A stretch of 55,692 nt of DNA from a bacterium (GTDB lineage Bacteria; Lernaellota; Lernaellaia; JACKCT01): positions 1 through 55,692 of the forward strand of contig JAIOHV010000201.1 in assembly GCA_019912885.1 (NCBI GenBank). Reading direction: 5' to 3'. The first letter of the stretch is position 1, and the number at the start of each line of letters is the position of its first letter. Below are positions 3,796 through 37,898 of this stretch, piece by piece. The position numbers were made by a program, and so were the translations under genes. The notes beneath the pieces were generated by a model. That model worked only from the letters and a program-made list of their open reading frames with translations. It searched no databases and was not told where the DNA came from.

Positions 3796-5502
3796 CTATC
3801 TCCCCGCCAATTCGTTCGCGATGGCGACCAGTTCGTCGTAGCCGGGCTTGGTCGAATCGTCGGGGCGGACGACGCCCCAGTAGGTTTCGACGGCTTTGAC
3901 GACATCGAGGAAGTGCGCGTCGATGTAGTCGATATTCATGATCGCCCACAGCACGAGCAGCAGCGCGTCGCCGTCGTGCCACCATGTGCCGAGCCGCGCG
4001 AGGTTTTGTGCGTCCTCGCCGGTGATGTCGATGCCGTGCGTGTCGGTTGTTTGCAGCCCGAAGTAGAGAAACCCGACGATGCCCTCGCTGTAGGCCGCGT
4101 GGAAGGCCTCGTCGATAAACTGCGCCTGGAGCGCTTCCGTGTAGCCAAGCTCCCCGGGGCCGGTGGGGTAGCCGATCTCCATGATCATGAGCGGCTTGCC
4201 GCAGCTAGCCTCGCGCATCGCCGCCGTGCGGTCGGCGAGCTCCGCGGCGTACAGTGGCGAAGCGACGTAGTAGTTCGGATACGCGTCGAACGCGACGATA
4301 TCCATGTGATCGCGCCAGAGCGTCGCCGCTTCGATCCAGGACGGCTGAAACAGCAGCCGGCTGATGTCCGGGTGCACGTCGGTGTGGAGGTTCTGCGTCG
4401 TGATGGCGTCCGGGTCGGCGTCGTGCACCGCGCGATTGAGCGTGATGAGCAGATCCGTGACGAAGTCCCAGTCCATCCACAACGAGCCGATCGCCGCAAG
4501 CCAGCCCGGTTCGCGCCATCCCCACGCGGCGGTCAGGAAGGCCTGGTTCAGTTCGTTTTCGAGCTGCCAGTGTTTGATGACGTAACCGTCCGGCGAGTCC
4601 TTGTATCCGTCGCCGTCGTAGCGCTCCACGGTAGCGCGCGTGGACATGTACATGTACGCGAGATACGCGTCGCGGCCGATCAGGTCGGGATACGCGGCGT
4701 CGCCCTGATACTTCGCCTGCTGCCCGCTGTAGCCGTGGCCGACAATGCTCCACGGCGTCAGGCCCGCGTTGACGATCGGCGCGACAACGCTATCCGCCGT
4801 CGTCCAGTCGGCGTTGTCGAGCAGATCGTCGATCCACTCCGGGTGCGCGAGCACGTCGTCGAGCGTGATCGTGATGTCGGTGATCTCCGGGAACACGTAT
4901 TTCTGGCTGATGCCGATGCGCGAGGCATTCATCCCGATTTGCGGCGCCCACTCGGCCTGATTCGCGGGATTGGACTGACTGAAGCCGAAGTGGAACGTGT
5001 CGAGCGTGGGGCCGTCGTTTGGCGGATTGTCCTTCGTGCCGTCGCAATCGTTGTCGGCGTCATCGCCGCAGATGTCGTACGCGGCCGGGTTGATATCCGG
5101 ATCGCCGTCGTCGCAGTCCTCGCCGCCGCACGCTTCATCCTCATATCCGTCCAGATCGAGATCAACGCATCCTGCCGTGTCGTCGTCGCCGGTGTCGTCG
5201 TCGCCGGTGTCGTCGTCCGCCGTGTCGTCGTCCGCGGTGTCATCGTCGGCCGTGTCGTCGTCCGAAGTGGAATCGTCGTCGGCGGTGGTGTCATCATCGG
5301 AGGTATCGTCGTCATCGGAGGTGTCGTCGTCATCGGAGGTATCGTCGTCGCCGGAGGCGTCGTCATCATCGGAAGCGGTGTCGTCGTCGGGCGCGTCCGC
5401 ATCGTCGTCATCGCCGCAGGTGCAACCGGGCAGCGCGAACATCAGCAGTAACGCGGTTATGGACGAGATGGACCGAATGGACCGAATGGACATGATGGAC
5501 AT
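3796..5502 (-). CDS. Asp-tract lipoprotein with TIM-barrel glycosidase-like domain
   Basis: A 568-residue protein. The signal sequence ends in the lipobox LPGC (C27), followed by TCG and about 75 residues of (T/S/A/G)DDD repeats. A MopE-like metal-binding motif then appears (DLDLDGYEDE, EDCDDGDPDINP, DNDCDG, about residues 108-150), as in other surface proteins. The C-terminal about 400 residues look like a clan GH-A glycoside hydrolase: WQLENELN (E317 after Asn as putative acid/base) and MEIGYPT (E442 as putative nucleophile). The polysaccharide substrate is unknown. The first codons derive from an ATGGAC-type DNA repeat, so the true start may be a later codon. It is the last gene of a run of exported hydrolases. 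Confidence 0.75.
   Translation of the reverse strand: MSIMSIRSIRSISSITALLLMFALPGCTCGDDDDADAPDDDTASDDDDASGDDDTSDDDDTSDDDDTSDDDTTADDDSTSDDDTADDDTADDDTADDDTGDDDTGDDDTAGCVDLDLDGYEDEACGGEDCDDGDPDINPAAYDICGDDADNDCDGTKDNPPNDGPTLDTFHFGFSQSNPANQAEWAPQIGMNASRIGISQKYVFPEITDITITLDDVLAHPEWIDDLLDNADWTTADSVVAPIVNAGLTPWSIVGHGYSGQQAKYQGDAAYPDLIGRDAYLAYMYMSTRATVERYDGDGYKDSPDGYVIKHWQLENELNQAFLTAAWGWREPGWLAAIGSLWMDWDFVTDLLITLNRAVHDADPDAITTQNLHTDVHPDISRLLFQPSWIEAATLWRDHMDIVAFDAYPNYYVASPLYAAELADRTAAMREASCGKPLMIMEIGYPTGPGELGYTEALQAQFIDEAFHAAYSEGIVGFLYFGLQTTDTHGIDITGEDAQNLARLGTWWHDGDALLLVLWAIMNIDYIDAHFLDVVKAVETYWGVVRPDDSTKPGYDELVAIANELAGR
5461..5500. repeat. ATGGACnnn short-period repeat forming the start of a signal sequence
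   Basis: Five imperfect 9-bp units (ATGGACCGA, ATGGACATG) on the plus strand. On the coding strand they give the MSI/RSI repeats at the N-terminus of the glycosidase-like lipoprotein. The same array occurs at 7897-7943 in the equivalent place of another lipoprotein gene. Confidence 0.7.
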
Positions 5503-5619
5503 ATCAGCGCGCCTCGGCGTTCAAAAGTATTCGTTTTCCTGGGTGTCCTCTGTTTCTTCGCGGCGCTCTCCGTGTACCGCCGGGATTGCATTTCCGTTCG
5601 CCACTCGCCATTTCCTTTC

Positions 5620-8016
5620 CTAATCGTCGTAGTAATCGAATGCGGCGACATCCTCGGTCAGGTCGATGAAACGCTTCACCGGCGGGTCGTCCCACGACTG
5701 TTCGGCGCCGCCGGGCCAGAGCACCTTAACCTCGTCGATCGTCGTCTTGTCCCCCAGGCCGAATTCGACCGGCAAGGACGGCGTGCTGCTGGCGTGGCCC
5801 TTGGCGCACTGCACCTCGCGGATTTGCGTCAGGTCGCCCGCGACAAGCGTGACGCGCGCGCCGCACGCGGAGCGGTTCGAGGTCACGCCGGTCAGGCGGA
5901 ACGTCGCCCAATTATTGTCCTGCCCCACGTCGTTGCGGAAGACGTGCGTGACGAATCCGCCGGACCGGCGCGTGACGAGCAGGTCGAGATCGCCGTCGCG
6001 GTCGAAATCTCCCCAGGCGTGGTTCGTGCAGTCGTGCATCTCGATGCCGGCCCAATACGTGACGTCCATGAACGTGCCGTCATCGAGTTGGCGATAGAGG
6101 CGGCCGTAGTGCCCTTCGTAGAGATCGGACAGGAACACGTCGAGCCGGCCGTCGTTGTCGAAATCGACGAACGACACGTCGATCTCGCCCTCGTCGCACG
6201 TGAAGCCGAGCGCGTCGGTGACCTCCGTGTAGAAAAAATCCGGCGCACCGGAGTTGAGATTCATGCTGCTCGGCTCGCTCGACGGCTGGTAGCGCGGGTG
6301 GCTGATCTCCGCGAGGTACGCGTCGAGGTCGCCGTCGTTGTCAATGTCGCCGAAGTCCGACGCGAAGGTGTTGCCGGGGCGGTTGCCGCGCGGCGAATCC
6401 AGGTTCGCGTCGTCCGCCACGTTCACGAAGGTGCCGTCGCCCTGGTTTTCCCAGAACACGTTTTTCACGCGGCCGTATTCGGACACGAAGATATCGGCGA
6501 GTCCGTCGTTGTTGTAGTCCGTCCATGTCACGCCGTAGGTGGGACGCCCGGCGAGCACGCCGATCGCCGATGCGTCGGTCACGTCGGTGAACGTGCCGTC
6601 GCCGTTGCCCGCGAAGAGCACGTCGGGGAACGACGGGATATTCGGATACTCCACGAGCCAGTTGCCGACGTAGAGGTCCACGACGCCGTCGCCGTTGTAA
6701 TCCGCGGCCGCGGCGGCCGACGTGCTGGGTCGGTCGCCCTCGAACATCACGTCCACCCCGTTCGATTCCTTTTCGGTGAACACGCCCGTGCCGTCGTTCA
6801 ACAGCACGGTGGACGGCGCGTCGACCGCGTCCGTCACGGGCGTGTTGACGCCGAGGTACACGTCGATGTCGCCGTCGTTGTCGAAATCGGCCCAGACGGA
6901 AAAGCCGGCGTAGTAGCCGTTCAGGCCGGAGGCGTCCGTCACATCGACGAACATCCCTTCGTCGTTGTGGTACACGCTGAAGCCTTCCTCGTCGTATCCG
7001 CCGCGCGACACCACGATGTCGTCCCAGCCGTCGCCGTCGATGTCCGCCCACACGGTGCGCTGGCGATGCAGATCGCCCGGCAGGCCGATGTCGGTCGTCA
7101 CGTCGGTGAAGGTCTCCGACTCCTTCTCGCAGAAGGTGTAGCCGTTCGCCCGCACCATGTAGTTATGCCCGGCGACGCCCCACTGGAACGGCGCGTTCGC
7201 GGCGGCCCAGTCCGCGCTGTAGTAGCGACTGCGCAGGTGGTAATTGTCCGTTCCATCCACGCCGAGCAGCGGCTCCTCGGTCACGTGTTCGTAAGCCACC
7301 CAGAACTTGTCGGCGGGGTAGCGCCAGAAATCGCGCGGCGGCAGCTCCACGCGCACCCAGCCCGCCTCCTCGGGTATCGCAAGGCGGATCGGCGTGATGA
7401 GATCGCCGTAGCGATCCGGCTCGGATCCGCACACGTCCGGCAAAAGGCGGACGATCACATCGCCGCAGCCGCCAAAGAAATAAAGATCGACGCTCGTGAC
7501 GTGGAACGGGTGCGGCGCGATGACCTGAATCGCCTCGATGTCGCCGGGTTCGAGCCCGCCGCGCCCGGCCTTTTTTACGCCGTCGTCGAGCGCGTATTGC
7601 GCCTCGACGTTCGCGGCCGGGTCCGTGGCGTCCGGGCAGATCGAGGCGTAGAGCGCCTCGCGGTCGATCGGCGCGCCCGGTTCGTCGCTTTCGACGACCG
7701 TCGCCTCGTCGACGCACTCGTAAACCGAGTCGTCGTCCCCCGCGTCGTCGTCGTCGTCATCATCATCATCGCCATCCGCTTCGTCGTCGTCGGCCGCGTC
7801 GTCGTCAGAGACATTGTCGTTGTCGTCATCGTCGTCGTCGTCGCCGCACGAGCAGCCGGCGGCCATGGACAGCGCCGCAAGCAGAAGCAACACGAAAATG
7901 GACCGAATGGACATAATGGACATGATGGACCCTATGGACCGGATCGACGCCTTAGACGCGCGGCGTTGCAGAGCGTCGCCCAGGTCGCGATTCTGATTTT
8001 CGTTCGTGGTTTCCAA
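5620..8016 (-). CDS. Asp-tract lipoprotein with FG-GAP/VCBS propeller and ASPIC/UnbV domain
   Basis: A 798-residue protein. A lipobox MAAGC (C55 from the TTG start) is followed by SCG and an Asp-rich tract. Seven D-x-D-x-D-G type repeats (for example DIDGDGWDD, DFDNDGDID, DYNGDGVVD, DIDNDGDLD, DFDRDGDLD) suggest a seven-bladed calcium-binding FG-GAP/VCBS propeller. The C-terminus (SNRSACGARV, REVQCAKGH, FGLGDKT, VKVLWPGG) matches the ASPIC/UnbV domain. Such proteins are surface-located; ligand unknown. The TTG start is 12 nt after the upstream stop and follows GAGG. An ATG at 7921-7923 would give a more typical signal peptide. Five codons around it come from an ATGGAC-type repeat. Confidence 0.85.
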   Translation of the reverse strand: METTNENQNRDLGDALQRRASKASIRSIGSIMSIMSIRSIFVLLLLAALSMAAGCSCGDDDDDDDNDNVSDDDAADDDEADGDDDDDDDDDAGDDDSVYECVDEATVVESDEPGAPIDREALYASICPDATDPAANVEAQYALDDGVKKAGRGGLEPGDIEAIQVIAPHPFHVTSVDLYFFGGCGDVIVRLLPDVCGSEPDRYGDLITPIRLAIPEEAGWVRVELPPRDFWRYPADKFWVAYEHVTEEPLLGVDGTDNYHLRSRYYSADWAAANAPFQWGVAGHNYMVRANGYTFCEKESETFTDVTTDIGLPGDLHRQRTVWADIDGDGWDDIVVSRGGYDEEGFSVYHNDEGMFVDVTDASGLNGYYAGFSVWADFDNDGDIDVYLGVNTPVTDAVDAPSTVLLNDGTGVFTEKESNGVDVMFEGDRPSTSAAAAADYNGDGVVDLYVGNWLVEYPNIPSFPDVLFAGNGDGTFTDVTDASAIGVLAGRPTYGVTWTDYNNDGLADIFVSEYGRVKNVFWENQGDGTFVNVADDANLDSPRGNRPGNTFASDFGDIDNDGDLDAYLAEISHPRYQPSSEPSSMNLNSGAPDFFYTEVTDALGFTCDEGEIDVSFVDFDNDGRLDVFLSDLYEGHYGRLYRQLDDGTFMDVTYWAGIEMHDCTNHAWGDFDRDGDLDLLVTRRSGGFVTHVFRNDVGQDNNWATFRLTGVTSNRSACGARVTLVAGDLTQIREVQCAKGHASSTPSLPVEFGLGDKTTIDEVKVLWPGGAEQSWDDPPVKRFIDLTEDVAAFDYYDD
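7897..7943. repeat. Second ATGGACnnn array within a lipoprotein signal region
   Basis: Imperfect 9-bp units (ATGGACCGA, ATGGACATA, ATGGACATG, ATGGACCCT) give the residues SIGSIMSIMSIRSI just before the hydrophobic core of the signal peptide. The array matches the one at 5461-5500, although the two proteins are otherwise unrelated outside the Asp tract. Confidence 0.7.
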
Positions 8017-8028
8017 ATTCCTGCCTCG

Positions 8029-8469: not shown

Positions 8470-9716
8470 GATGCGTCTCCGTTTGTCTTGCGTACATTCA
8501 GGTATTTATCCCAGAACTCAAAGATTTGGGACAGTAACGACGTCCCGGTGCGCGGATCGACGAAGCCGTACGCCGGCCTGAGGACGTGAAGCGGCGCGGT
8601 CGAAAACTGATTGATGATGGCGCTGTACGCATAAATCGCGGGCACGGTCGAATTCTGGTAGGGGTCATTCGGCGCACGATCGAGATAGTTGGCGTCGGAA
8701 TCGCTCACCAGGGCGTGAAAGGCTCGGGGGCGCACGCGCACGGTGACGTTCGCGACGACCGCGCCACCGGAATGGCCGATCAGCCCGATGCGGTCGGGTT
8801 CGACGGCCGTGAGCGACGCGACGTACCGGTGCGCCAGCAGTTGCTCGTACACATGCAACGACAGCAGCGAAAAGCCGGCGAGCAAGAGGCGCCTCGAGAT
8901 GTCGGACTCGACCTTGTCGGCCAGCATCGCGCGGCCGGAGACCATCGCGATGAGGTACCCGTGCGCGGGGTACGTTTCGCCGCCGTAATCCGTCCGAAAG
9001 ATTTCGATGCTGTCTCCGTGCCCGTGCGCCGCGACGATGGCCGGAAGGAATTCTTCGGGATCCCGGGGTGCGAGGATGACGACGCGAAAGGCGCCCACAT
9101 CCTCGTCGAGGATGAGGATTTCCTTTTCGCACGAATCGGCGTCCACGCGCGTCGAAACGACCTCCACCGTCATTCGCCTTCGTTCGAGCCGGTCAAGGAG
9201 AAACTCAATGTTCAGGCGATTCGCGAGCTTCTTCGCGAGGACGTCTGGACGCGGGAGCTTGACGAAAAGCGGCGGCGGGACAGTCAACATGTCATCCAGC
9301 CGCGCCTGCGTGATTTCGCGCGCGCGCGACCTGTTTCGATCGAGAAATTTCTCGTAACCCCGCACGCACCGATGCGCGTTCACGGCGCAGGAAAGCTCGG
9401 AAAAATCGCCCAGGTAATCCGTCTCGTCGATATTCGCGCCCGCGCGAAAATCGTCGAGCCAGCCGCACATGGCGTCGTAATCGGCCCCGTGATAACCCAC
9501 GCGCGGCGGAAGGCGAGCGGCGTCGCCGCGACCCGGCGCCGGCGTGTCGTCGTCATCGCCGCCGTCATCGAAACCCTGTCCGTCCGCGTCTTTTCCCGGC
9601 GCGGCGGGCCACATCGCGACCAGCAGCGCGGCCACGAGCGCGGCGCCCAGGGGTATTGCCCGGCGCCGGCGCGCGGCGCGGTACAGGCGCGTTTTCCACG
9701 CCCGGGCGGGGGTCAT
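8466..9716 (-). CDS. Membrane-anchored or secreted alpha/beta hydrolase
   Basis: A 416-residue protein. A basic N-terminus precedes one hydrophobic segment (about residues 21-38), then a low-complexity linker with a short DDGGDDDD run. The C-terminal about 300 residues carry an alpha/beta-hydrolase core: HGHGD (oxyanion-side loop) and nucleophile elbow GHSGG (S316). A later Asp and His could complete the triad but I cannot assign them. The family is peptidase/acetyl-xylan-esterase-like; substrate unknown. The start overlaps the stop of the upstream gene by 4 nt and the stop overlaps the next start by 4 nt, so it sits in the middle of an operon. Confidence 0.75.
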   Translation of the reverse strand: MTPARAWKTRLYRAARRRRAIPLGAALVAALLVAMWPAAPGKDADGQGFDDGGDDDDTPAPGRGDAARLPPRVGYHGADYDAMCGWLDDFRAGANIDETDYLGDFSELSCAVNAHRCVRGYEKFLDRNRSRAREITQARLDDMLTVPPPLFVKLPRPDVLAKKLANRLNIEFLLDRLERRRMTVEVVSTRVDADSCEKEILILDEDVGAFRVVILAPRDPEEFLPAIVAAHGHGDSIEIFRTDYGGETYPAHGYLIAMVSGRAMLADKVESDISRRLLLAGFSLLSLHVYEQLLAHRYVASLTAVEPDRIGLIGHSGGAVVANVTVRVRPRAFHALVSDSDANYLDRAPNDPYQNSTVPAIYAYSAIINQFSTAPLHVLRPAYGFVDPRTGTSLLSQIFEFWDKYLNVRKTNGDAS

Positions 9717-11653
9717 GGCGTCGCGAGCTGAATGTCGTCGAACGACACCAGCCCCTTGGGGTTGACGTCGAATTCGAAGATCACCGCCTCGATATCCGTG
9801 CCCACGATCGGGCTGGCCGACAGATCCGCGAGCGGGATGCGCACGGTGTTCAGCACCGTTTTCGATCCGTCGGACGCGCCGTATTTCACGCGGGCGGGGT
9901 ACGTCAGCGTGGCGTAATCCGACACGGGTACCGCGGGCTGCTCCACGCCGTCCACGACGACGCGCACGGAAAAGTCCTGCGCCGCGTCGAACGTGTTGTA
10001 GTTGTCCGCGACCTCATACACCGTCGCGGCGCGGAAGACGAGTGCGTCAAAGTCGTCGGCCGACGCATCGAGCGCCGGCAGATCGACTCGATATTCCGAC
10101 GCCGACGTCCAGCCCGCGCTCACGCCGCGTGAGCTGCCGGGGTAGAGCGGCGACTCCGTCCATATCGAGGTCGTGGCGCTGTTAGTCGCGCCGGCAAGAC
10201 TGCCCGACGTCTTGTTCGCGTCTTCCTCGTAGTGGTCAAACCACATCCGCTCCGGGCCCTGGAACTGCTGGTTCATCACGATCGTTCCGGGGAGCGAGCC
10301 GTACGTCGTCTCGCCGGCGAAGAAATTGCGGTAACAGGTCTCGCCGTCGAACGACGCCAAAAACCAGGACGTGATGAAGTTAAGGCCAATGGCGCGCTGG
10401 TCCGGGCCGGACAGCGGCGCGGGATCCGAAAACGACGGCGGGTACGGATCGCCCACCGCCGACCACACCGTGTTCCAGTGCGCGTGGTTCGCGCCGTAGA
10501 CGAACGCCAGCGCCTTGGCGGCCGTCGTTTCCTCGCCCACCGGCAACGCGCGATCGTACGTGGCGTGGCCCTGGAAATCGGACACGTCGCCGTCATTCGA
10601 TCCGTGCATGATCGCGTAGTTCACGTCGCGCGGCACGAAGTTCTGGAACAGGATCTGCCCGTCCACCGGAGCGATGGCGAACAGCGCCCGGATGTCGAAA
10701 TCGAAATCGTGCAGCGGGTCGCTCGGGTTGTGCAGCGTCGTATTGAAATCCTGCGCCGCCACGACCGCTTCGCCGCCGCGTGAATGCCCCGCCAGGCCGA
10801 TGCGGGACAGGTCGATCTTCTGGTAGAGCGGGTGCGTCGGCGTCTCGTTCCACTCTCTAAACAATTGCAGATGACGCAGCAGCACGATTCCGCGCGCGTC
10901 ATTTTCGCCGGACGCGCCGTTCAGGAAATCTTCCTCCACCGAAAACGCGATGTAGCCGTGCGTCGCGAGGTGGCTCGTCAGGTAGTCGTAGCCCGGATAG
11001 GAAAACTCCGCCGGATCGTGATTGCCATGAACGACGAGGACGACCGGAAACGGCCCCGCGCCGTTCGGGTAGTAGCCGACCGCGTGCAGTGGCACGGCCG
11101 TCGGCTTGATGCCGCGGCCAAAACGCACGTAGAAGTCGAGAACGAAAACATACGGCTGAACGTTCGTCGTGCGCTTGTCGGGGTCGCCGTCGTGGCCGTA
11201 CTCCATCGCGGTCGTGGCAAAAGGCCCGGGCGTCGCCGGGTCGGGCGGATCACCGATGCACGGATCCATCGGGAACAGCGGACCGTCGCTCACCGTGTCG
11301 TCGTCGCCGGTGTCGTCATCGCCGGTGTCGTCGTCGCCCGTGTCGTCGTCCCCGGTGTCATCATCGCCCGTATCGTCGTCCGACGTGTCGTCATCCGCCG
11401 TGTCGTCGTCGGCGGTGTCGTCGTCGAAATCGTCGTCGACGTCATCGTCACCGGCGTCGTCATCCGAATCGTCGTCGTCGAGATCGTCGTCGCCGGCATC
11501 GTCATCCGCGCTGTCGTCATCGCCGTCGTCGTCATCGTCAGCGTCGTCATCGGTGGAATCGTCATCGTCGTCGTCGTCGTCGCCGCACGAGCAGCCGGCG
11601 ACGGCACTTGCGAAAAACGCGGCCAGAAGGATGGCAATCAGAAATCGGGGCAC
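9713..11653 (-). CDS. Asp-tract lipoprotein with chlorophyllase/PETase-like alpha/beta-hydrolase domain
   Basis: A 646-residue protein. The GTG at 11651-11653 follows GGAGG with good spacing and is preferred over the ATG at 11687-11689. The signal peptide ends in lipobox AVAGC (C21) then SCG, followed by about 100 residues almost entirely of DDD repeats. The repeats are irregular at first and then six or more exact TGDDD units. The catalytic domain has VHGNHDP and the nucleophile elbow GHSRGG (S291), as in chlorophyllase-like and polyester-hydrolase-like families. The last about 180 residues form a separate domain ending in a beta-rich SFDDIQLATP segment, probably a carbohydrate-binding-like sandwich. 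It is the first gene of the operon. Surface esterase activity is inferred. Confidence 0.8.
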   Translation of the reverse strand: MPRFLIAILLAAFFASAVAGCSCGDDDDDDDDSTDDDADDDDDGDDDSADDDAGDDDLDDDDSDDDAGDDDVDDDFDDDTADDDTADDDTSDDDTGDDDTGDDDTGDDDTGDDDTGDDDTVSDGPLFPMDPCIGDPPDPATPGPFATTAMEYGHDGDPDKRTTNVQPYVFVLDFYVRFGRGIKPTAVPLHAVGYYPNGAGPFPVVLVVHGNHDPAEFSYPGYDYLTSHLATHGYIAFSVEEDFLNGASGENDARGIVLLRHLQLFREWNETPTHPLYQKIDLSRIGLAGHSRGGEAVVAAQDFNTTLHNPSDPLHDFDFDIRALFAIAPVDGQILFQNFVPRDVNYAIMHGSNDGDVSDFQGHATYDRALPVGEETTAAKALAFVYGANHAHWNTVWSAVGDPYPPSFSDPAPLSGPDQRAIGLNFITSWFLASFDGETCYRNFFAGETTYGSLPGTIVMNQQFQGPERMWFDHYEEDANKTSGSLAGATNSATTSIWTESPLYPGSSRGVSAGWTSASEYRVDLPALDASADDFDALVFRAATVYEVADNYNTFDAAQDFSVRVVVDGVEQPAVPVSDYATLTYPARVKYGASDGSKTVLNTVRIPLADLSASPIVGTDIEAVIFEFDVNPKGLVSFDDIQLATP

Positions 11654-11695
11654 GGGCGCGAACCTCCGTCGGGGTAATCGGGGCCACACTATAGC

Positions 11696-11764
11696 AGTGT
11701 CGAGTGACGAGTGACGAGTGGCGAGCGATTCAAATTGGGAATGGCGAATGGCGAATGGGGAATG
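11696..11764. repeat. CGAGTGA/TGGCGAA imperfect short-period array
   Basis: About 70 bp of repeats: GTGACGA and GTGGCGA units, then GGCGAATGGCGAATGGGGAATG. Related arrays lie at 2832-2862, 5596-5612 and 30385-30425, always between genes. No ORF or RNA fold of note. The rest of the 11654-12101 interval holds only a palindromic CGGGCGTCCCG, weak promoter-like AT stretches and the features listed separately. Confidence 0.6.
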
Positions 11765-11946
11765 CCGGACACCTCCTGAGCTCGGCCGAGCGATTGGCCC
11801 GGGAGCGCGGGCGTCCCGCCTGCTTATACCCTGACGTGTTGATCCACCGTATGAGGATATAATATCTATCCGCTTGAATCATGGGCAAAATGTCGACACG
11901 CATGAATCGGTATTTGAAAAGTATGACGCACCGCGTTATCACCGCA

Positions 11947-21429: not shown

Positions 21430-22284
21430 GTGAAAAATCGACGCAGATTCGCGATTTTGGCGTTGACGTTGGTTATCGCGGCGTTTTTTGCGCCGGTGGC
21501 GTGGGCCGCGAGCCGTGTCATCGCCATTACGTCGGCACCGGCTCAAGATTTCCTTCCGAAGGTCCGTGCGATGCTCTCGAACGAGGGACGCGCCGAGGTC
21601 GACACCGCGCGAAACGCGATCATCGTCAGCGACACCGATGAGAACGTCGCGGATATCGAGCGTCTCATCGCCGCGCTCGACAGACCCGCGCCGTGGGTCG
21701 TTTTGCGCGTCACGCGCGCGTCGCCGCCGGCGCTCGAAGCGGCCGGCGTTCGCATCGACGAACAAACGGCGGACGGCGTCTGGCGCGTTGCCGATCTGTC
21801 CGCCGCGAAGACCGGCGAGGATGCGTACCGCGCGCGCGGCGCGACGGTGCGCGTGCATTCCTCCTCGCAGGCGGCCACCTCGACTTACAAGGTGCGGGCG
21901 GGCGGCGAGGTGCTGGTGCGCCTTGGCGATCCGGTCCGCGCCGACACGCTGTCCGCGGGCGCTTTCGGTCGGCTGCCGTTCGTGGAGGATCTCCGGACCG
22001 GAACGGCGCAAGGCGCTCTTCTCGTCACGCCGTCGGTCGCCGGCGAAAAGGTTTTTCTTCGCATCGTTCCGGCGGCGATCTTCATTCGCGACGGCGAGGA
22101 TATCCGGATCCGCCGCCTCGACGATCTGGCGACGAGTGTCGGCGCGCCCGCCGGCGGGCAGGTCTACGTTTCCACGCGACGAACGGGCTCGGCGCTTCTC
22201 GACGGGGTGATGACGGGCTTCGCGCCCGAGCGCTCGGTGCGCGACGAGGCCGGCGGGCTACTCATCGACATCGACCTGGAATAG
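21430..22284 (+). CDS. Periplasmic protein with secretin N-terminal-like domain, no secretin channel
   Basis: A 284-residue protein (GTG 21430 preceded by AAGGCGG; an ATG at 21409 is possible). A signal peptide ending APVAWA precedes a segment (FLPKVRAMLSNEGRAEVDTARNAIIVSDT, IERLIAALDRP) that matches the small N-terminal domain of type II/III secretins (the NALIV-DT---I--L---LD pattern). The rest is beta-rich and lacks the secretin beta-barrel signature. Either it is a periplasmic relative that lost the channel, or a pilotin-like partner. The NTF2-like lipoprotein gene follows 29 nt downstream. No type II secretion genes are in the window. Confidence 0.65.
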   Translation: MKNRRRFAILALTLVIAAFFAPVAWAASRVIAITSAPAQDFLPKVRAMLSNEGRAEVDTARNAIIVSDTDENVADIERLIAALDRPAPWVVLRVTRASPPALEAAGVRIDEQTADGVWRVADLSAAKTGEDAYRARGATVRVHSSSQAATSTYKVRAGGEVLVRLGDPVRADTLSAGAFGRLPFVEDLRTGTAQGALLVTPSVAGEKVFLRIVPAAIFIRDGEDIRIRRLDDLATSVGAPAGGQVYVSTRRTGSALLDGVMTGFAPERSVRDEAGGLLIDIDLE

Positions 22285-28383: not shown

Positions 28384-28412
28384 TTGATACTTTTTTCGTT
28401 TCCCCTTAGATT
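28384..28412 (+). promoter_or_regulatory. Promoter of the first GCGC-terminal gene
   Basis: TTGATA (28384-28389), a 17-nt pyrimidine-rich spacer and TAGATT (28407-28412). The paralogous gene has a similar promoter at 29363-29391. Confidence 0.7.
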
Positions 28413-28499
28413 TACCCAACTTTTTGAGTGATCCGGCCGCGAGGGAGGGTCTTTCGGCGGGCCGATTCATCGAGAAATCCAATTGGGAGTATGGCGACA

Positions 28500-29225
28500 A
28501 TGAAAGCAATGCAAATCCTCATGGCGATGATCCTCGTCCTTCTCGTGGGATCGTTCTCCGTGGCCTTCGCGCAGGATGACGATACGGCCGCGGACGACGA
28601 CGCCGCGGATGACGACACGGCGGCGGATGACGACATGGACGACGACGCGGCCGACGATGACGATGACGATGACTTCTCGGCCGAAGTGACGTTCTCCAGC
28701 CCGACGGCGCTCGAAGCGGACTCCGAATACGAATTCGAGTTCTCCGTCGCGAACACGACGTCCGCGGATGTCGAAGGCAACCACTGGGTCTATCTGGTCG
28801 AGATGTTCATGCCCTCGCCCGACTACGTGATCGACAGCGCGAGCGTCCACACGCCCGATCCGCTGCATCCGTCCGACGGCGACTGGAACGCGCAGGTGAT
28901 CGAGGATGTCGACGGCACGCAGGGCATCCTTTGGGAGTTCAACAACATCGCGACGACCGCGATCAATGGCGACATCCAGGAAGGCGAGTCGCTTGACTTC
29001 TCCTTCATGGCGACGACCGACGCGGACGCGACGGACGGCTTCCCCTGGCGCGTCGTGGCCGATAGCGGCCTGTTCGACACCGGCGTCGCGGAAATCGGCG
29101 GCTCGGCGGACGACGACACCGACGACGACACCGACGGTGACGATGACGACGCGGCCGATGACGATACCGACGGGGAACCGAGCGGCGGCGACGATGACGA
29201 CGATGACGGCGGCTGCGGCTGCTAA
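28500..29225 (+). CDS. Secreted protein with Asp tracts at both ends and C-terminal GCGC (copy 1)
   Basis: A 241-residue protein. A Sec signal peptide ends AFA before QDDD; no lipobox. An Asp tract of about 45 residues leads into a beta-rich domain of about 120 residues (SPTALEADSEYEFEFSVANTTS, HWVYLVEMFMPSPDYV, DGFPWRVVADSGLF). A second Asp tract follows, then the terminal GGCGC. I do not recognise the domain. The ATG at 28500 has GGGAG at a proper distance; the ATG at 28491 is too close. It has its own promoter and terminator. A close paralog lies directly downstream. The end may be a sorting or cross-linking signal; that is inference. Confidence 0.8.
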   Translation: MKAMQILMAMILVLLVGSFSVAFAQDDDTAADDDAADDDTAADDDMDDDAADDDDDDDFSAEVTFSSPTALEADSEYEFEFSVANTTSADVEGNHWVYLVEMFMPSPDYVIDSASVHTPDPLHPSDGDWNAQVIEDVDGTQGILWEFNNIATTAINGDIQEGESLDFSFMATTDADATDGFPWRVVADSGLFDTGVAEIGGSADDDTDDDTDGDDDDAADDDTDGEPSGGDDDDDDGGCGC

Positions 29226-29279
29226 ATGAGGCTATCGTCCGCGCGTGTTGCGGGCGTAGGGTCAACGACAGTCCAAGGG

Positions 29280-29311
29280 GCGGGCGCGGCACAAGCCGCG
29301 CCCGCTTTGTT
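29280..29311 (+). terminator. Rho-independent terminator
   Basis: Perfect 11-bp GC stem (GCGGGCGCGGC, 29280-29290, with 29295-29305), a 4-nt ACAA loop and a short T-rich run (TTTGTT). It follows the first GCGC-terminal gene. Confidence 0.85.
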
Positions 29312-29362
29312 ATGGACGTGAGCGCCGGCGTGGGAAATTTATGAAACAGCCGGCCTTTTGTG

Positions 29363-29391
29363 TTGATATGCTTAAGGATTTCCGCTAAGTT
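29363..29391 (+). promoter_or_regulatory. Promoter of the second GCGC-terminal gene
   Basis: TTGATA (29363-29368), a 17-nt spacer and TAAGTT (29386-29391). The -35 is identical to that of copy 1, which suggests similar control. Confidence 0.7.
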
Positions 29392-29463
29392 CGCACGCAA
29401 GCGGCGCCGATTGGTCGCGGAATAGGGTGTCCTTCGGCACGGCGCCTTCGGAGGGAGCAATTT

Positions 29464-30138
29464 ATGACGCGCTTTTGGTTTGCGGGCCTTCTTGCCTGCC
29501 TGGCGATGATCGTCGCCGTCCCCGCTTTCGCGCAGGACGACGATACCGCCGCGGACGATGATGCCGCGGACGATGACGCCGCGGACGACGACGCCGCGGA
29601 CGATGACATCGGCGACGATGACGACGGCGCGGGCTTTACCGGCACGGTCGAATCGTCAAGCCCCGCGACGCTCGAATCGAACACGCAGTACGAGTTCAAC
29701 TTCCGCGTTTCCAACACGACGAGCCCAAACGTCGAGGGCCAGCACTGGATCTACCTCGTCGAGATCTTCATGCCGTCGCCGGATTACGTGCTCTCGAGCG
29801 ATCTCATGGTTCCGGACTCGGACCACGGCGGCGAGTGGGTCGCGGAAATCTTCGAGGACGAGATGAACATCCAGGGGATCAACTGGATGCACAACACCAC
29901 CGTGACGACCGCGTTCGTGGGCGACATCGAGGAAGGCGACTTCAAGGACTTCTCGTTCATCGCCACCACCGACGAGTTCGCGACGGACGGATTTGACTGG
30001 CGCCTTGTGGCCGATAGCGGATTCATGCAGACGGGCACCGCGTTCATCGGCGCCGACGATGCCGACGACGACACGGCCGACGGCGACGACGATGACGACG
30101 ACGATGATGACGATGACGACGACGGCTGCGGCTGCTAG
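29464..30138 (+). CDS. Secreted protein with Asp tracts at both ends and C-terminal GCGC (copy 2)
   Basis: A 224-residue paralog of the preceding protein. A signal peptide ends PAFA before QDDD, then a regular AADDD tract. The same beta-rich core follows (SPATLESNTQYEFNFRVSNTTS, HWIYLVEIFMPSPDYV, DGFDWRLVADSGFM). The end is an Asp run of about 13 residues and DGCGC. GGAGGG precedes the ATG. Core residues are conserved between copies while the Asp tracts differ in length, so the tracts evolve by repeat gain and loss. It has its own promoter and terminator. Function unknown. Confidence 0.8.
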   Translation: MTRFWFAGLLACLAMIVAVPAFAQDDDTAADDDAADDDAADDDAADDDIGDDDDGAGFTGTVESSSPATLESNTQYEFNFRVSNTTSPNVEGQHWIYLVEIFMPSPDYVLSSDLMVPDSDHGGEWVAEIFEDEMNIQGINWMHNTTVTTAFVGDIEEGDFKDFSFIATTDEFATDGFDWRLVADSGFMQTGTAFIGADDADDDTADGDDDDDDDDDDDDDGCGC

Positions 30139-30180
30139 ATAGGGCGACAGGCCGAAGTCCATCGCGGACGGAGATCAGGA

Positions 30181-30213
30181 ACGGGCGCGGCAAAAAAAGC
30201 CGCGCCCGTTTTG
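30181..30213 (+). terminator. Rho-independent terminator
   Basis: 11-bp stem (ACGGGCGCGGC, 30181-30191, with 30199-30209), an A7 loop and TTTT. The stem sequence is nearly the same as that of the terminator at 29280, consistent with duplication of the whole unit. Confidence 0.85.
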
Positions 30214-31842: not shown

Positions 31843-32130
31843 GAGATGTCAGTGCCGCAAACGGAGGCCGCGATGTCAGTGCCGCAAACGCAGTCACGCC
31901 GAAGCGAAAGCGAAGGCGGACGGAGTGCGCGGTCGATACCGCCCAGGCATCGCCGCTCGTCCGCGATGTCAGTGCCGCAAACGGAGTCACGCCGAAGCGA
32001 AAGCGAAGGCGGACGGAGTGCGCGGTCGATACCGCCTCGGCATCGCCGCTCGTTCGCGATGTCAGGGCCGCAAACGGAGTCACGCCGAAGCGAAAGCGAA
32101 GGCGGACGGAGTGCGCGGTCTCGTACGCCA
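31843..32130. repeat. Three tandem copies of a 93-bp repeat
   Basis: GATGTCAGTGCCGCAAACG begins copies at 31872, 31965 and 32058 (exact 93-bp period, with a partial extra start at 31845). Each copy continues GAGTCACGCCGAAGCGAAAG, CGAAGGCGGACGGAGTGCGC and a GGTCGATACCGCC end. It is the reverse-orientation counterpart of 19424-19600. Stop-free in several frames but without ribosome binding sites, so probably non-coding. Confidence 0.85.
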
Positions 32131-37220: not shown

Positions 37221-37487
37221 GCCCTGCGCCGGACCGCCCCGGGCGGCGAGCCGGCCCACGATTTCCCTTGTCGGAACGCGGGGTTCCGCGGCCGAAGGAC
37301 GCCCTTTCCGGTGCATGAAGGCCAAAGTTTGCCGCACTTTTTTTTCGCGGCCAAATCTGGGGACGAAGGGTTGGGGACAGCGGGGATAAGTCCGGGCGAC
37401 GGTCCGGCCGCGTGCCTTGACTTGGCAAGCGGATACGCCCGAAACTCCCCGCGATTTTCCGCTGACCCCTAATGACGAGGAGTTCGC

Positions 37488-37898
37488 ATGAACGGGCGAA
37501 TCTGGTTGTGGACCGCTTTGATCGTGGCGCTTTTGGCCGCCTCGGCGCTTGTCGCCTGCGGCGATGACGATGACGACGACGAAGAAGAAGACGACGACGC
37601 GCCGGCCGACGACGACGCGGACGACATGGCCGATCCCGTCGGGGAGTGCACCGACGAATCGCAGCGGCTGTACGGCAATCCCGACGGCTGCATCGCGCCG
37701 CAGCAGGAGCCGGCGTCGTCCGAGCAAGCCTGCCAGTCCGGTTACAACGCGGCCGCGGGCAGCTCGTGCGGCGAGCAGTCGTTTATCGACCTCGTGAATT
37801 GCATCAAGGACATCTCGTGCGACGACGTCGACCAGGCCAACGCCGACTGGGCCGACTGCGCGGTGACGTTCGAAAACGCCGTCGCGGCGGCGTGTTGA
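37488..37898 (+). CDS. Small Asp-tract lipoprotein with Cys-rich domain
   Basis: A 136-residue lipoprotein. A signal peptide ends in lipobox LVAC, followed directly by [15 protein letters not shown]. The mature domain (about 85 residues) holds eight Cys, likely four disulfides, in a helical pattern ([57 protein letters not shown]-terminal Cys). GAGGAG precedes the ATG. It ends at a terminator-like hairpin. Unrecognised family; the Asp tract after the lipid Cys links it to the other lipoproteins in the window. Confidence 0.8.

Follow-up and report, generated by a model that had tools for sequence, protein, structure and literature searches.

Two adjacent genes in the window, a stretch of 55,692 nucleotides that was analyzed as a whole, encode exported paralogs, each ending in an Asp-rich tract followed by GCGC, and they raise the question of whether this ending is a C-terminal Cys tag that works without a membrane segment. 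The window is contig C201 of the source genome assembly (G000; 4.8 Mb, 99% complete), which belongs to the phylum Candidatus Lernaellota, that is, FEN-1099, also named Podoxiota in the available part of PMC11382960. The genes and their parts are as follows.

28491..29225, + strand: tagged protein 1 (244 aa; start at 28491 or 28503)
28491..28571, + strand: signal peptide of protein 1, with AFA then Q at its end (read from sequence; hydrophobic segment computed)
28674..29102, + strand: core of protein 1, conserved in paralogs
29103..29210, + strand: C-terminal Asp-rich tract of protein 1
29211..29225, + strand: GCGC and stop codon TAA of protein 1
29280..29305, + strand: GC-rich hairpin downstream of gene 1 (read from sequence; fails the terminator scan)
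29464..30138, + strand: tagged protein 2 (224 aa)
29464..29532, + strand: signal peptide of protein 2, with AFA then Q at its end (read from sequence; hydrophobic segment computed)
29635..30051, + strand: core of protein 2, conserved in paralogs
30052..30123, + strand: C-terminal Asp-rich tract of protein 2
30124..30138, + strand: GCGC and stop codon TAG of protein 2
30181..30209, + strand: GC-rich hairpin downstream of gene 2, with a stem nearly the same as that of gene 1 (read from sequence; fails the terminator scan)

The paralogs were 61% identical and had the layout described in the first-pass annotation, namely a signal peptide, an Asp tract, the core, a second Asp tract, and GCGC followed by the stop codon. 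The C-termini of proteins 1 and 2 read GEPSGGDDDDDDGGCGC and DGDDDDDDDDDDDDDGCGC, respectively, and the window had two copies of GGCTGCGGCTGCTA, both at these ends, compared with 0.01 in shuffled sequences. The core had been called Cys-poor, and reading of the mature chains confirmed this, the two tail Cys being the only Cys in each. The same annotation had assigned a TTGATA-17-TA promoter and a nearly identical terminator to each gene. One such promoter, TTGATA-17-TAGATT, was found at 28384 (0.7 in shuffles) and the promoter scan yielded none for gene 2; the GC-rich hairpins after both genes were indeed nearly identical, but neither passed the terminator scan. Pfam and NCBIfam matches of both proteins were all below the cut-offs, leaving the core with no Pfam family above cut-off, and the AlphaFold2 model of paralog 2 (aligned with paralog 1) had a pLDDT of 47. 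Elsewhere in the window, just downstream of purA (31868–32120), a 93-base unit was present in 2.7 copies with 96% match; it may be an interspersed repeat, because a frame with similar words (MSVPQTE) was also found on contig C133.

The ending recurred throughout the source genome. GCGC preceded TAA or TAG at 12 sites genome-wide, all 12 in Asp-rich frames, and CGC-TGA occurred 86 times, versus 11 for the reversed-pattern control. Distinct open frames ending in CGC numbered 103 among those examined, and 90 of them had Asp-rich tails, defined as at least 6 Asp within the last 60 residues; the 13 below this threshold were dropped. The figure of 90, counted as distinct tails, is a lower bound, because CGC-TAA/TAG endings other than GCGC were covered only as far as contig C104. 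The last five residues were GCCGC, GGCGC, CGCGC, and DGCGC in 24, 22, 15, and 8 tails, respectively, and differed from these in 21; CGC, CCGC, and CGCGC endings contain two or three Cys.

Alignment and a Pfam survey, both of which took in 82 of the 103 frames, revealed C-G-C at the extreme end as the sole invariant columns and 47 Pfam families among otherwise unrelated bodies. These included FG-GAP repeats, subtilases, Kelch propellers, PKD, M14 carboxypeptidases, metallophosphatases, and trypsins, as well as one C25 peptidase, one peptidyl-arginine deiminase, and others. A hydrophobic export segment was present in 57 of the 59 tagged proteins whose N-terminus was covered, and a simple pattern test on these 57 gave a type I-like signal-peptide site in 54 and a lipobox-like site in 3; two or three tagged proteins may carry an N-terminal lipobox as well. 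Two Asp-rich C-tails ending in CGN and CCGG instead of CGC were seen in a 400-kb sample of the genome, which was chosen partly to avoid stretches already examined and is not unbiased. One C-terminal motif on many unrelated exported proteins (90/103 frames, 47 Pfam families) is as expected of a modular sorting tag, and it is near certain that the tail is under selection as a tag. The membrane-free terminal Cys tag suggested by the first-pass annotation is strongly supported in being selected and modular; its role in sorting, anchoring, and modification is what we infer.

An artefact, either stop readthrough into a hidden MYXO-CTERM helix or low-complexity drift, is extremely improbable as the origin of this ending. 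The GCGC signature is identical to that of MYXO-CTERM and TGA was the stop codon in 73 of the 90 tagged frames, as readthrough would have it, but all three stops were used and the ending recurs in seven assemblies. A hidden helix past the stop was rejected: helix-like stretches were found there in 5 of 88 cases in frame, versus 6 in the other two frames together, which nearly refutes the artefact.

The terminal Cys is typical of proteins sharing the core but not absolute, because 16 of the 41 core homologs checked had an ending other than the CGC found in the remaining 25. Five of the 16 ended in a single Cys, namely four tandem copies on contig C50 (VFSC or LFSC) and one on contig C28 (FFNC), and seven had Cys close to the C-terminus (CCG, CCGCG twice, CRGCG, CGG, SCGE, and CCK). 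The other four were without such a tail, two of them coming from a stretch of G002 with broken frames. Paralogs that keep the core and lose the tag, which had been named beforehand as evidence against a selected ending, were therefore found in part. The four tandem core paralogs (G000:C50:2500-9500) have Asp tails with a lipobox-like single-Cys variant of the tag (VFSC/LFSC).

The tag pattern was matched in all seven genomes of the phylum examined (G000 to G006, of which G002 is in the family of G000), weakly in G003. The counts were 114, 83, 95, 7, 19, 94, and 57, versus 0 to 2 in controls, and they overlap, as a single tail can match several times. Many GCGC-terminal proteins were thereby found in relatives, the absence of which had likewise been named as evidence against the proposal. 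A strict scan for DDDDGCGC-TAA/TGA in the 84,980-species genomes gave four stretches, three of which were in FR_14 'FR-FEN-1099-1', a MAG of this phylum. The fourth, in a Bacteroidales MAG, was rejected as a likely antisense chance match, lying on the opposite strand of an apparent other gene. The strict scan requires four Asp directly before GCGC and shows that the form is rare elsewhere, not that cousins are absent, because just 4 of the 90 tails of G000 qualify and near relatives may be missing. With the tag, the likely surface proteome of this candidate phylum, which is known from metagenomes, can be marked out simply.

Read backwards, DDD-GCGC is CGCG-DDD, and CxCG-DDD was found at 82 places in G000 and at none in the control, in agreement with the earlier remark that the tail mirrors the CxCG-D form of lipoproteins. 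The places read were of the lipoprotein type, with a signal peptide, G/A/S, CSCG/CGCG/CTCG/CQCG, and poly-Asp. The window contains the following.

11573..11593, − strand: mirror motif CSCG-DDD at a lipoprotein N-terminus (ORF 9713-11878)
7834..7854, − strand: mirror motif CSCG-DDD at a lipoprotein N-terminus (ORF 5620-8028)
5404..5424, − strand: mirror motif CTCG-DDD at a lipoprotein N-terminus (ORF 3796-5520)

Of the 82 places, 45 distinct motifs were examined, and none of the 42 CxCG-D lipoproteins whose C-terminus was covered ended in CGC; CxCG-D was near the N-terminus in none of 60 tagged proteins. In the sets checked, each of which was picked by its own motif, the motif goes to one protein end or the other, never both. 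The CxCG-DDD counts in the seven genomes were 82, 33, 59, 1, 0, 5, and 3. The N- and C-terminal motifs accompany each other only in part across the phylum and do not covary across families, G005 and G006 being rich in C-terminal tags despite low CxCG-DDD, and the mirror is clearest in family f1, because CxCG-DDD is high there and low in family f3. The window also encodes, at 37476–37898, a short lipoprotein-like frame whose signal peptide is followed by ACG-DDDDDD, with one Cys in place of CxC, and whose last residue is Cys.

Asp tracts are calcium ligands, and CxC is a ligand for soft metals or can serve as a redox motif. The tail might accordingly be a ligand cluster for calcium or another metal, or a redox tail, and not a sorting tag. 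We consider this quite improbable, since binding requires neither a terminal position nor exclusion from lipoproteins with different C-termini, and since C-G-C at the extreme end makes up the sole invariant columns over 82 proteins. Anchoring through thiols without lipid, in which a disulfide or thioether bond would link CxC to a surface polymer or to a partner on the surface (possibly the +3 Cys of the CxCG-D lipoproteins), is fairly unlikely. It would explain why both mirror motifs retain a second Cys, though one lipidated Cys would suffice, and why the CGC, CCGC, and CGCGC forms have two or three Cys; yet strong acidity would drive two such tails apart unless cations bridged them, single-Cys tails exist (VFSC, LFSC, and FFNC), and kinship to MYXO-CTERM favours lipid.

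In the published model of MYXO-CTERM, an Lgt-like enzyme lipidates the Cys in a generic GCGC and a myxosortase then cuts distal to the Cys; the available part of the source describes the acyltransferase of this pathway as unidentified (PMC11980579). The TIGR03901 profile gave one to eight matches per genome at E 0.1 or better in all seven phylum genomes, and in those read out a linker, poly-Asp or otherwise, led into GCGC or a Cys motif resembling it, behind which came a helix and Arg/Lys residues. The same phylum has DDDDGCGC with a helix and basic residues behind it, and the MYXO-CTERM protein of G000 reads DGGCGCRAASGEPPLSAVFVLGLLTIGVGFARR. The first-pass annotation was right that the window proteins lack the helix and the basic tail, but the kinship is closer than it had supposed.

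Judged by the definition in the available part of PMC11980579, the tag has the short signature with an invariant Cys (generic GCGC), but the tagged proteins stop at CGC, without a transmembrane helix after the signature or an Arg-rich C-terminal end. The one TIGR03901 match over the cut-off in G000 was to another protein, and the tagged proteins fall outside this profile. Among the 20 CPBP proteins scored with Mrt_core, nine of which were incomplete or scored as the matched stretch only, the cut-off was exceeded in G002, G004, G005, and G006. The best myxosortase-core score in G000 was 66.6 against a cut-off of 100, and G001 (99% complete, tag-rich) gave no CPBP protease match. Myxosortase was therefore rejected as an obligatory enzyme, and the tag appears independent of the protease, because neither of these tag-rich genomes has a myxosortase over the cut-off. 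We file the tag as a variant of C-terminal sorting tags outside MYXO-CTERM proper, because the helix, basic tail, and protease are missing. The best reading is a pre-cut MYXO-CTERM-like tag whose Cys would be modified, probably by lipidation, for surface anchoring.

Three Lgt loci per genome, some in pieces, were found in all seven phylum genomes. Compared within the phylum, Lgt copy number does not track tag number, since G003 has few tags despite its three Lgt loci. The Lgt tree, which covered 20 of the 21 loci and had several weakly supported nodes, showed three groups distributed across the phylum; one of them adjoins lspA in the neighbourhoods read. At the position of N and E in E. coli Lgt, 19 of 20 Lgt proteins had a Cys-rich GC....GCC.G-like site; the one on contig C8 of G003 did not. 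Among the neighbourhoods read, one Lgt gene of G000 lies about 600 bases downstream of a tagged gene on contig C133, and one of G005 lies just before a MYXO-CTERM gene; because Asp-rich genes are so common, these neighbourhoods are no evidence for a link. Beside an Lgt gene of G002 (C6, L338 7798-9207), a small protein ending in EGKCGEGSCGGKK is followed by an apparent DUF692/MNIO enzyme, which we take to be a bufferin-type pair.

GspD was detected in all seven genomes, over the cut-off in six, and in G000 as two pieces on two contigs. A weak GspD (secretin) match in the window (21511–21735; 31.6 bits, below cut-off) lies in a 319-residue frame. The tail might instead direct secretion, recognized by the type II system or another exporter, with the proteins released rather than anchored. 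The bodies, typical extracellular enzymes and repeats, and the presence of GspD would suit such release. However, exclusion from lipoproteins and kinship to MYXO-CTERM suit an anchor better, and we know of no common linear C-terminal signal among type II substrates elsewhere, so we consider release unlikely.

We estimate a probability of roughly 50% that in Ca. Lernaellota the tail Dn-(G/C)CGC-COOH serves as a modular C-terminal tag for sorting and anchoring, with the Cys modified and the protein held at the outer membrane. The tagged protein would be exported by Sec, a step that is well supported, and its ordinary signal peptide would be cleaved. One or both tail Cys would then be modified, most likely lipidated by an Lgt-family enzyme, for which an Lgt paralog is a plausible candidate. 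The modified protein would stay attached to the outer membrane, with the type II secretion system probably placing it on the cell surface. We regard surface anchoring as likely, given what the bodies are, the mirrored motif, and the relation to MYXO-CTERM, and we infer the type II route by analogy with MYXO-CTERM. The Asp tract may be a spacer or a surface-export element beside the anchor. The tag would correspond to the MYXO-CTERM portion up to the Cys after which myxosortase is thought to cut, and the tagged proteins would need neither helix nor protease because they are encoded already cut.

We counted in favour of the anchoring tag the 90/103 frames, 47 families, 57/59 exported proteins, seven of seven genomes, the mutual exclusion with CxCG-D, and genuine MYXO-CTERM nearby. 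Also counted in its favour were the chance control (11 for 86 CGC-TGA endings), the 82 CxCG-DDD places (0 in the control), the lack of a myxosortase over the cut-off in G000 and G001, the three Lgt loci and GspD in each of the seven genomes, and the published model of lipidation followed by cutting (PMC11980579). Against it we counted the variants without terminal Cys, the possible N-terminal lipobox in two or three proteins, the mismatch between Lgt and tag numbers, the mirror motifs that do not covary across families, and the need for a helix-free, soluble, acidic tail to meet a membrane enzyme somehow. If the tag on some 90 proteins is the signature alone, the helix and the cut would be dispensable, and the Cys-modifying step of the MYXO-CTERM pathway would be separable from its cutting step. 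The question is directly testable, because GCGC in one phylum is followed by a helix on few proteins and by none on many.

Cytosolic prenylation acts on the CC/CXC tails of Rab GTPases in eukaryotes. These tails resemble the tag in having two Cys at the extreme C-terminus after a flexible linker, with nothing to cut off, whereas the tagged proteins of Lernaellota are exported. A tentative and rather doubtful proposal is that the tag is a counterpart of the Rab-type CXC, in which one of three old Lgt paralogs would lipidate exported proteins at a C-terminal Cys pair without a transmembrane segment or proteolysis, so that lipoproteins could be built from either chain end with the mirror signals CxCG-Dn and Dn-GCGC. 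Bacterial lipoproteins (signal peptidase II/Lgt) share Cys beside Gly and a poly-Asp tract, but their Cys is N-terminal and follows the signal peptide in a lipobox; the Cys of the tag is C-terminal and the signal peptides are mostly type I (54/57, the other 3 being lipobox-like). To our knowledge, C-terminal surface-sorting signals include a membrane helix and a basic tail, which an enzyme takes off (partly after the available portion of PMC11980579). GlyGly-CTERM/rhombosortase, PEP-CTERM, JDVT-CTERM, and other CTERM tags (partly from the same portion of PMC11980579) are likewise modular C-terminal tags on unrelated exported proteins, but consist of a signature, a helix, and a basic tail, whereas the tag is the signature alone. 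The lipoprotein export signal of Bacteroidetes, as given in the available part of PMC5080379, also places acidic residues near the anchor Cys of surface lipoproteins; that signal is N-terminal with two acidic residues, whereas the tracts here have many Asp and occur at either end. MYXO-CTERM/myxosortase (TIGR03901; MrtX NF040593; Mrt_core NF040914) shares the Asp-rich linker and C-terminal GCGC on many unrelated exported proteins, and differs in having a helix, a basic tail, and a myxosortase, whereas the tag has neither helix nor basic tail and occurs in G000 and G001 without a myxosortase over the cut-off.
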